Shown here in pieces: positions 5,468 through 18,508 of a stretch of DNA of 64,000 bases. This DNA is from Undaria pinnatifida (taxonomy: Eukaryota > Sar > Phaeophyceae > Laminariales > Alariaceae). A program made the position numbers and the translations under genes. The DNA lies in assembly GCA_012845835.1 (NCBI GenBank), contig JABAKD010000009.1, positions 10,414,785 through 10,478,784 of the forward strand. Direction: 5' to 3'. How positions within the stretch are numbered: the stretch's first letter is position 1; every line of letters starts with the position of its first letter. Below the pieces are notes generated by a model. The model was not told the origin of the DNA. It saw nothing but the letters and a program-made list of their open reading frames with translations, and made no database searches.

Positions 5468-5572
5468 ATGGATGAGGCTTGGGACGACCTTGCTTTCGAC
5501 TTTGAGCCTGCCGTGCAAGCAGCCCTGCCTGCTTCGGCCCTGGGCAACACCCGAGATCGCTTCAGGACGCAG
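5468..5572 (+). CDS. CPSF30-like gene, exon 1 (start codon, acidic N-terminus)
   Basis: The ATG at 5,468 opens a 35-codon exon ending in CAG before a strong GTGAGC donor, in phase 0. The start was chosen because M-D-E-A-W-D-D-L-A-F-D-F-E matches the short acidic N-terminus of plant CPSF30, and because the exon end (R-F-R-T-Q) joins directly to V-C-R-H-W-L-R-G-L-C in exon 2, as in plants. The price is a 4.2-kb first intron. Confidence 0.8.
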
Positions 5573-17500: not shown

Positions 17501-18508
17501 GCGCGATCAGAGTATCACACACAGCCTGCAAAGATGAGTTTCGACAAGAAAAAAATCTTCGATCTCACAGCTGGAGTGTATTTTCATGCAGGTAAAACCC
17601 ACGGTATTTCATGTGCATACATATATACCTGGTAATTTTATATAAAATGGAAACGACAGCTGCCGATGTATTGTCAACAAACTGAAGGTCGTATCGTAGT
17701 CGTATCATACCACCGATCACGCGCAATAAAACCCTAAATTTGTCGAACTCACAACTGACGTATTTAGAACATTTTAATGACAAAACACTGCCAGATCTCC
17801 GGCGGGGGTGCAAACGCCAGCATACATTATGTAATGCAGGTTAGAAGCACGTTTTCGTGGGTCTATAAGTGAAGTCAGCTTGGTGGTGTACGATGACATT
17901 GTGGCGTTTATACCATAACGCCGAACGAATGCGTGAGTCATACTCCCTGCCCAATCCCACCCTACCCCACCACCCCACCTCACCCCACCCCTCCCCACCT
18001 CACCTCACCTCACCCCACCCCACCCCACCTCACCCCACCCCACCGCCTTCACCCCACCCCACCCCACCTCACCTCACATTGTCGCACCCGATCCCGCCTC
18101 CACCCCCACCCCCATCCCCACCCCCCCGCTATCCGATCGGTGCAATCGTTTTGATAGGTTCGGGTTTCGGTGGACCTGAAAGCTCCGCCGATCAAGGCTG
18201 GGGAACCGATCGTAGGGGAGATTTTCCGGTCAGGCATGGTTGAACCGGGACCGTTGGACCCGCGGCAGGTCGATATGCTGGCCTCCACTATGGCGGGCCG
18301 CATGCGACCGCCGCCGCCAGGGATAGCGCCAGTGGGGCCGCCTTTCAACAGTAGTAGCAATGGCGTTGGTGGGGGGGGGAGGGGGGGTGGGGGTGGGGGT
18401 GGGGGTGGGAGAGGGGGTGGGGGTGGTGGTGGGGGTCGGGGGCAGGGGGGAGGGATGAACAGGCGCATGGGCGGTAACCACCGTGGCAGACGCGGGGGAA
18501 AGTTTTAG
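5468..18508 (+). CDS. CPSF30-like factor with CCCH fingers, YTH and DCD-like domains (11 exons)
   Basis: This is a predicted nuclear mRNA 3'-end processing factor of the CPSF30 family, which binds the polyadenylation signal through CCCH fingers. Proposed exons are 5468-5572, 9770-9861, 10633-10752, 11639-11972, 12769-12972, 13722-13844, 14239-14361, 14849-14929, 15734-16129, 16956-17171 and 18158-18508. All introns are GT-AG, all phases agree, and the total is 2,145 nt (714 aa). The N-terminus (M-D-E-A-W, then an acidic F-D-F-E) resembles plant CPSF30, and the fingers start right after exon 1 as in plants, which lack the first animal finger. Domain order is CCCH fingers at about 37-107 and 196-215, Gly-rich linker, YTH at about 271-400, Gly-rich linker, DCD-like at about 518-630, and a Gly/Arg-rich tail ending at 714. 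Plants and apicomplexans are known to fuse CPSF30 to YTH; the added DCD-like domain is unusual. The domain calls are strong. The exact donor of exon 2 is uncertain. Confidence 0.9.
5573..9769 (+). other. Intron 1 of the CPSF30-like gene (4.2 kb)
   Basis: No separate gene is supported inside this long intron. It holds CAG/CAA-rich DNA duplicated at about 6,835-7,120 and 7,240-7,480, with a third related CAG block near 7,690-7,740. It also holds a fragment of dispersed repeat X (7,471-7,555), a pure CAG run near 8,789-8,812, and a pyrimidine-rich stretch (9,430-9,760). That stretch contains a duplicated 'ccacatacatctatgtct' block and leads into the acceptor before exon 2. The many open frames here are repeat artefacts. 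Confidence 0.6.
9770..11972 (+). CDS. CPSF30-like gene, exons 2-4: CCCH zinc-finger module
   Basis: Exon 2 encodes C-R-H-W-L-R-G-L-C with a C-x8-C-x5-C-x3-H finger, the family signature. Exon 3 supplies the rest of finger 2 (G-C-A-F-R-H) and finger 3 (C-A-M-Y-Q-H-G-F-C-x5-C-R-F-R-H). The final His comes from exon 4 across an AG^GTGAGG donor. Exon 4 adds a Gly/Ser-rich linker and a fourth, TTP-like finger (residues 196-215, C-x8-C-x5-C-x3-H) followed by H-G-E-E-E-L-R-K-Y. Plant CPSF30 has three fingers, so the fourth is extra. Finger 2 is uncertain: the strong AG^GTACTT donor (exon end 9,861) removes a Y-F-S-Y-A-D-G-C segment that aligns with the plant finger. A weaker phase-compatible donor at 9,889 would keep it. 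Confidence 0.85.
12769..14929 (+). CDS. CPSF30-like gene, exons 5-8: YTH domain
   Basis: Four phase-0 exons (12769-12972, 13722-13844, 14239-14361, 14849-14929) encode a YTH domain, the fold that reads N6-methyladenosine in RNA. Landmarks are A-R-F-F-V-L-R-S-L-N (residues 271-280), K-K-W-Y-A-R-R-H-N with the first cage Trp (W293), F-F-F-S-V-N and F-Q-G-C-A, F-S-I-K-W-L-R-L-C-E-L-P-F, and N-E-D-L-P-V-G-R-S-R-D-G. These align in order with the plant CPSF30 YTH domain. The loop between G-C-A-E-M-T-S-R and F-S-I-K-W is about 15 residues with no aromatic residue. In plant CPSF30-L and human YTHDC1 that loop carries the second cage Trp. Binding of m6A is therefore not assured. Confidence 0.9.
15734..16129 (+). 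CDS. CPSF30-like gene, exon 9: end of YTH, Pro patch, long Gly/Val linker
   Basis: This phase-0 exon of 132 codons begins L-S-K-L-I-W-A-Q-P, matching the end of the YTH fold. It continues through a basic Pro-rich patch (R-R-P-P-M-P-T-G-P-P-P-K-I-P-R) and then about 65 residues that are almost all Gly with some Val. It ends with G-F-L-F-E-I-E-S-Q, which matches the first strand of the DCD domain. The Gly run is encoded by G-rich DNA likely to vary in length between individuals. Confidence 0.8.
16245..16386. repeat. (GTT)n microsatellite in intron 9
   Basis: About 47 uninterrupted GTT units lie in the intron between the YTH/linker exon and the DCD exon. The poly-Cys, poly-Leu and poly-Thr open frames across it are artefacts. 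Confidence 0.95.
16956..18508 (+). CDS. CPSF30-like gene, exons 10-11: DCD-type domain and RGG-like tail
   Basis: Exon 10 (16956-17171) encodes H-F-D-E-C-V-G-K-L-L-F-G-L-P, an I-x-P-G-N-F-L-F-L strand and L-G-I-F-R-A. It ends P-L-P-W-Q, which joins exon 11 as Q-V-R-V. These correspond in order to the FGLP, LFL and PAQV motifs described for the DCD (development and cell death) domain, known mainly from land plants. With the end of exon 9 the domain spans about residues 518-630. Exon 11 (18158-18508) continues through a basic/Pro segment to a Gly-rich tail with R-G-G-type repeats and stops at TAG. The DCD call rests on motif order, not on a profile search. Confidence 0.75.
17172..18157. other. 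Intron 10 with repeat X copy and pyrimidine minisatellite
   Basis: This intron contains a GT-rich stretch (17,210-17,400) and a diverged, split copy of dispersed repeat X at about 17,513-17,770. A CCCCACCTCA-type minisatellite at 17,950-18,128 precedes the last acceptor. No gene is supported inside. Confidence 0.6.
17513..17770 (+). repeat. Dispersed repeat X, copy in intron 10
   Basis: It shares 'gcctgcaaagatgag' and 'cctaaatttgtcgaactcaca' blocks with copies near 7,471-7,555 (opposite strand), 28,553-28,690 (opposite strand) and 30,573-30,635. It is split by about 120 bp of other sequence. It looks like a small non-autonomous element. Confidence 0.5.

Follow-up and report, generated by a model that had tools for sequence, protein, structure and literature searches.

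Does a polyadenylation factor that carries a YTH domain still read N6-methyladenosine (m6A), or may a second domain have taken over as the sensor of RNA modification? The question is raised by a gene of the brown alga Undaria pinnatifida, in which CPSF30-type CCCH fingers are followed in one predicted chain by a YTH domain and by a DCD (Dev_Cell_Death, PF10539) domain. The gene spans positions 5468-18508 on the + strand of the window, as the whole stretch of 64,000 nucleotides analysed here is called (GenBank assembly GCA_012845835.1, contig JABAKD010000009.1, positions 10,414,785 to 10,478,784). The best overall explanation, which we hold to be moderately probable, is that the gene encodes a CPSF30 whose YTH domain binds RNA without standard m6A reading, the DCD being the likelier sensor.

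The domains were identified in Pfam and PDB searches which, like the first homologue searches, were made with a 723-residue draft, or part of it, of the present 714-residue model. The YTH domain is matched with an E value of 1.2e-33, and belongs to its family by both sequence and fold. The DCD profile is matched at residues 527-621 of the draft, corresponding to 518-612 in the 714-residue numbering, with 34.9 bits (E 1.5e-8) against a gathering cut-off of 27.8. The domain alone scores 39.6 bits (E 5.2e-10), and exon 10 alone gives 2.3e-5, under the cut-off. An earlier note, made from the letters of this DNA, had placed a DCD at about residues 518-630 on the basis of three motifs, and these are found in the order it indicated, FGLP, then LFL, then P-x-Q-V in the form P-W-Q-V. 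Among finger families, zf-CCCH is over its cut-off, Torus is exactly at it, and the remaining ones are under theirs. The fingers (residues 33-120) align to residues 64-146 of human CPSF4 with a phmmer E value of 2e-23 for the sequence, in agreement with the CPSF30 orthology proposed earlier; top PDB matches are the YTH domain of Arabidopsis CPSF30 (AtCPSF30, 5zuu) and, for the fingers, human CPSF4. An exon-wise search of the alga's own genome (511 Mb, 68 contigs) with the CPSF30 query placed 12 of 12 matches (15 candidates scored) at the 5468-18508 locus and revealed no second copy, though a divergent one could escape a search of this type. Judging from these similarities, the gene is most likely the ordinary CPSF30 orthologue of the alga.

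Searches with the YTH region retrieved five proteins among 147 candidates, each listed with both YTH and DCD, and the DCD region retrieved the identical five among 275. They come from Hapterophycus, Ectocarpus and Scytosiphon (P0001-P0003) and from the EukProt entries P0004 and P0005, and form, together with the window protein, the six rows denominated below brown-algal-type. With a four-row, linker-trimmed alignment as the query, 70 proteins were retrieved among 6262 candidates. PF10539 was found in 25 of the 70, and PF04146 too in 24 of those 25. DCD-bearing proteins beyond the brown algae are from Chrysoparadoxa, from the oomycetes Pythium (two), Lagenidium, Nothophytophthora and Globisporangium, and from Ochromonas, and include further proteins. 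The presence of a CPSF30-YTH-DCD fusion in a stramenopile, the central claim of the earlier note, is borne out by the Pfam matches and by collinear orthologues, and the same kinds of domain share one chain in brown algae, oomycetes, Chrysoparadoxa and Ochromonas. No DCD is listed, among the 70, in the CPSF30-YTH proteins of streptophytes (P0020, P0023, P0028, P0029) or coccidians (P0041, P0042, P0044). A search of the Undaria genome with the DCD profile gave nothing, a weak negative because the DCD of the window itself, split over three exons, was missed as well.

The fusion itself is not new, although the author of the earlier note knew of none. Znf-YTH-DCD-KH orthologues of CPSF30 have been described in many heterokonts, for example Saprolegnia diclina, by Bell et al. 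2020 (PMC7641849), who suggest a role for the DCD in reading modified RNA, perhaps 5-methylcytosine (m5C); neither Ectocarpus nor brown algae are named in the main text of that paper, and the words 'aromatic' and 'cage' do not occur there. The window protein shares with the heterokont proteins the CCCH fingers, then YTH, then DCD, but features a Gly/Arg tail in place of the KH domain. No KH was found in the model, nor downstream of it in the window (best E 3.5). Of the 25 DCD proteins, 14 have a KH domain of the KHDC4/BBP type listed, and a KH profile of our own picks out the same 14. In Ochromonas P0037 (MMETSP, with a transcriptome label), CCCH, YTH, DCD and KH lie in a single chain. KH is missing in all seven proteins of brown-algal type, P0001-P0005, P0014 and P0017, four of which (P0001, P0003, P0014, P0017) are labelled partial; P0014 (Discosporangium) and P0017 (Choristocarpus) are presumably brown algae. 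KH is absent also from P0015, P0016, P0018 and P0019. Gly/Arg-rich C-termini are found in the window protein, P0001, P0002, P0004 and P0005.

In YTHDC1, m6A is held by W377, W428 and L439, and bonded through N363, N367 and S378 (PMC6112328). These positions were compared in 41 aligned YTH domains, from 38 of the 70 proteins, the window, AtCPSF30 and YTHDC1; P0014 and P0017, in which YTH is cut short or absent, were excluded. Of the hydrophobic cage, the six brown-algal-type rows all keep the W377-equivalent alone. The W428 position falls in all six in a shortened loop devoid of Trp, and a polar residue (S, Q or K) stands at the L439 position, again in 6/6, the loop being so short that this column is uncertain. 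Since in the window the cage loop lies within a single, uninterrupted exon (14239-14361), no overlooked exon conceals W428 there. As aligned, two of the three m6A-cage positions have disappeared from the YTH domain of brown-algal-type CPSF30, while its fold is preserved. Given these losses in six rows out of six, m6A reading by the CPSF30 YTH is doubtful in the brown-algal lineage, and the domain is most likely an RNA binder that does not recognize m6A in the usual manner. The proposal that m6A-type reading is tied to this CPSF30 stands, accordingly, for the presence of a YTH domain and is weakened for the reading.

Other lineages help to place these changes. Arabidopsis CPSF30, which presumably lacks a DCD, shares the fingers and YTH but, unlike the window protein, keeps W, W and Y at the cage positions. 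Toxoplasma CPSF4 (7ng2/7nh2/7njc) is likewise a CPSF30-type protein with a YTH domain, which reads m6A in 3'-end formation (PMC8313237). Its coccidian relatives P0041, P0042 and P0044 keep the W428-equivalent and have no DCD listed, the opposite of what is seen in the window. Among the 24 rows with a DCD, nine (from Chrysoparadoxa, oomycetes and the like) have a Trp at the L439 position, whereas in brown-algal-type rows both the W428 and L439 positions are lost. YTHDF proteins have Trp at the L439 position as well. The W428-equivalent is found in 0/24 DCD rows versus 11/17 rows without DCD, the six lacking it among the latter being P0021, P0030, P0036, P0039, P0040 and P0047, fragments included. 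The loss of W428 wherever a DCD is present was rejected as a test: every DCD row is either a stramenopile or an unnamed protein, and the correlation is confounded largely by shared ancestry. The Leu found at the N363 position in brown-algal-type rows was also dropped as a lost m6A contact, and is given no weight, because the four plant rows besides AtCPSF30 have C, C, L and S there, and the N363 bond is partly via the backbone (PMC6112328). The S378 position is Y (by eye, untallied).

Several observations weigh against a YTH domain blind to m6A. The W377- and N367-equivalents are kept in all six brown-algal-type rows, which leaves room for weak or altered binding of m6A; a Val adjoining the L439 position is invariant across the six and, on the alignment, might replace the function of L439. 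One may imagine a YTH domain reading m6A through an atypical cage, made of the W377-equivalent and a nearby Tyr, Met or Val, with the DCD adding affinity or partner contacts. The well kept YTH fold and a mean YTH identity of 80% over 15 pairs fit this alternative, yet the W428-equivalent is deleted and the L439-equivalent replaced in every row, and the structure model of P0004 is of lower confidence in the cage-loop stretch. We regard the atypical cage as somewhat unlikely.

The m6A machinery at large bears on the same alternative. YTH matches in the Undaria genome are three, and define a second, YTHDF-like gene (G000:C28:3040141-3043548; exon joins not proven) with two cage-type Trp, in NGIW and ERW. 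The gene failed as an intact-cage control, since visual inspection shows Trp of the W377 and W470 types and no clear one of the W465 type, in what we take to be YTHDF numbering. A published survey credits Ectocarpus with FIP37 and two ECT readers, and some m6A machinery may be present in brown algae; both the second gene and this listing favour the atypical cage. Against it, survey work found no MT-A70 writer in Ectocarpus. In the Undaria genome no MT-A70 match was found up to E 10 by an insensitive exon-wise search with silent controls, a negative that is weak because no control genome matched and the YTH family search missed the window itself. NSUN-type sequences (PF01189) gave four matches at two places. 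Work on m6A genes in Phytophthora sojae deals with orthologues of METTL4 and METTL16 (PMC11449341).

Should standard m6A reading by the YTH domain be lost, the DCD deserves attention. Identity to the window protein is 90-91% for fingers 1-3 (three proteins), 52-61% for the fourth finger (ZF4; four proteins), 74-77% for YTH and 82-85% for DCD (five proteins each). Mean pairwise identities are 0.94 for fingers 1-3 (6 pairs), 0.71 for ZF4 (10), 0.80 for YTH (15) and 0.89 for DCD (15). The DCD is more conserved than YTH; ZF4 is in turn less conserved than YTH, so that lower identity alone is no mark of decay. The DCD model of the orthologue P0017, with a core mostly above 90 in predicted local distance difference test (pLDDT), superposes on EVE and YTH folds (Foldseek, VIA), and by this common fold the DCD would belong to the EVE/YTH-like PUA superfamily. 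It includes a conserved aromatic residue in the loop matching the pocket loop. Two points invite caution: hhalign does not link the DCD and YTH sequence profiles (prob 1.1), and the pocket residues of the two domains are paired by fold order only. No DCD structure is named among the PDB matches listed (60 of 107) for a 25-row profile, and we know of no proven ligand of a DCD. On the model, the DCD is better seen here as a second EVE/YTH-like fold than as the stress-linked domain of the earlier note, and is a better candidate than YTH for a modification sensor.

Known proteins with related folds illustrate how far such parallels go. Plant DCD proteins (Pfam Dev_Cell_Death) have family membership in common with the window protein; to our knowledge they are not CPSF30 and have no YTH. 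Their stress and cell-death roles are not transferable, and say little on the function of the alga's protein. The archaeal PH1033 (1wmm) and MJECL36 (2p5d), which we take to be EVE proteins, are not CPSF30 fusions. Despite a YTH-like fold and an aromatic cage, MJECL36 does not bind m6A (PMC6112328). In Mmi1 the YTH domain binds an unmodified motif, not m6A (PMC6112328), and the P0017 DCD model matches Mmi1 structures too. Both facts would suit a YTH domain that recognizes plain RNA sequence as Mmi1 does, next to a DCD serving as a structural or protein-binding module. We deem this improbable: no Mmi1-specific sequence feature was noticed, though none was searched for, and the conserved aromatic in the pocket loop of the DCD speaks against it.

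All this requires that the exons belong to one gene. The model was rebuilt from the DNA letters, with protein comparisons used to fix the exon 2 donor, and consists of 11 exons on the + strand with GT/AG borders and matching phases. Exon 1 (5468-5572) provides the start codon and an N-terminal extension (MDEAWDDLAFDFEPAVQ, residues 1-35), of which 29/35 residues are the same in P0003, the only relative covering the N-terminus. The CCCH fingers of the model begin in exon 2 (9770-9861), the first of them (VCRHWLRGLC...FLH) aligning with what we take to be ZF2 of human CPSF4. Exon 3 (10633-10752) encodes a short CX5CX4CX3H finger, aligned to the presumed ZF3, and the bulk of the following one, and exon 4 (11639-11972) the end of the third finger, a Gly-rich linker and the fourth CCCH finger. 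A linker and the start of YTH (ARFFVLRSLNHDNLA) are found in exon 5 (12769-12972). YTH continues with the W377-equivalent (KKW) in exon 6 (13722-13844), with beta4, the shortened cage loop lacking the W428-equivalent and beta5 in exon 7 (14239-14361), and through exon 8 (14849-14929). Exon 9 (15734-16129) includes the YTH end, a Gly-rich linker and DCD strand 1 (GPPGFLFEIESQ), exon 10 (16956-17171) the DCD core (FDECVGKLLFGLP ... FLFLWD ... DRTAW ... LPWQ), and exon 11 (18158-18508) the DCD end (VRVSVDLKAPP ... LASTMAG), a Pro patch, the Gly/Arg tail and the stop codon, with no KH. A long run of GTT trinucleotides is present in intron 9 (about 16247-16385), adjoining the DCD-coding exons.

In the 723-residue draft the exon 2 donor had been set at 9888. 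This was rejected because P0003, P0004 and P0005 read 'MPICRWRTDCQ' at that point, and the donor was moved to CAG|GTACTT after 9861, which gives 714 residues; with this correction, the splice phases, span and length given in the earlier note hold. Two adjacent genes merged by eye might be suspected, given the long introns (intron 1 measures about 4.2 kb). P0001-P0005 are, however, collinear with the model across the stretches each covers, which makes an accidental joining of exons very unlikely. Moreover, YTH, DCD and CCCH fingers lie in single chains in oomycetes, Chrysoparadoxa and Ochromonas, and the architecture is already in print (PMC7641849). The chance of an artefact is close to negligible; the comparisons confirm the predicted model as a real gene and its exons as one unit.

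The fingers deserve mention. The one aligned to ZF3 of CPSF4 is of the CX5C type in 19/19 scorable DCD-bearing CPSF30 proteins, window included (7/26 rows being unscorable); in proteins without DCD it is CX8C in 23/31 scorable cases and CX5C in 8/31 (14/45 unscorable). In the human complex Phe98 stacks on A5 (PMC12421377). Brown-algal-type and many oomycete-type fingers have a Trp two residues past the first Cys (CRW), at the Phe98 place in a by-eye alignment. The idea that the short finger ruins stacking on the poly(A) signal was dropped, as this Trp fills the equivalent place.

Elsewhere in the window, an open frame at 3-743 on the - strand contains three stretches matching Notch/LNR (Pfam 2e-7). 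Another, at 35198-35872 on the - strand, has a weak, below-cut-off Phage_integrase match (4.8e-4), and is perhaps the remnant of a tyrosine-recombinase transposon.

Returning to a CPSF30 in which the DCD is the likelier sensor, its CCCH fingers would, by homology, dock in the cleavage and polyadenylation complex, where they would touch the poly(A) signal. YTH and DCD, both of EVE/YTH-type fold and held on presumably flexible Gly-rich tethers, would probably make contact with the pre-mRNA close to where it is cleaved and bias the choice of poly(A) sites, as suggested by AtCPSF30 and Toxoplasma CPSF4. A base that is modified or flipped would more likely be read by the DCD, m5C being a guess in print. 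A bolder scenario, which we consider unlikely, is that brown algae no longer use m6A to choose poly(A) sites: they would have lost the METTL3-type writer, YTH, a relic without its cage, would serve simply as an RNA-binding fold, and the DCD would now be the sensor of another mark (e.g. m5C) that steers 3'-end formation. In plants and Toxoplasma, YTH on CPSF30 links m6A to transcript ends. A lineage whose CPSF30 retains YTH as a fold with most of the cage gone, beside a more strongly constrained second reader-like fold, would provide a natural test of whether the coupling of m6A to 3'-end formation can be lost or re-targeted, and a concrete assay system for the DCD.
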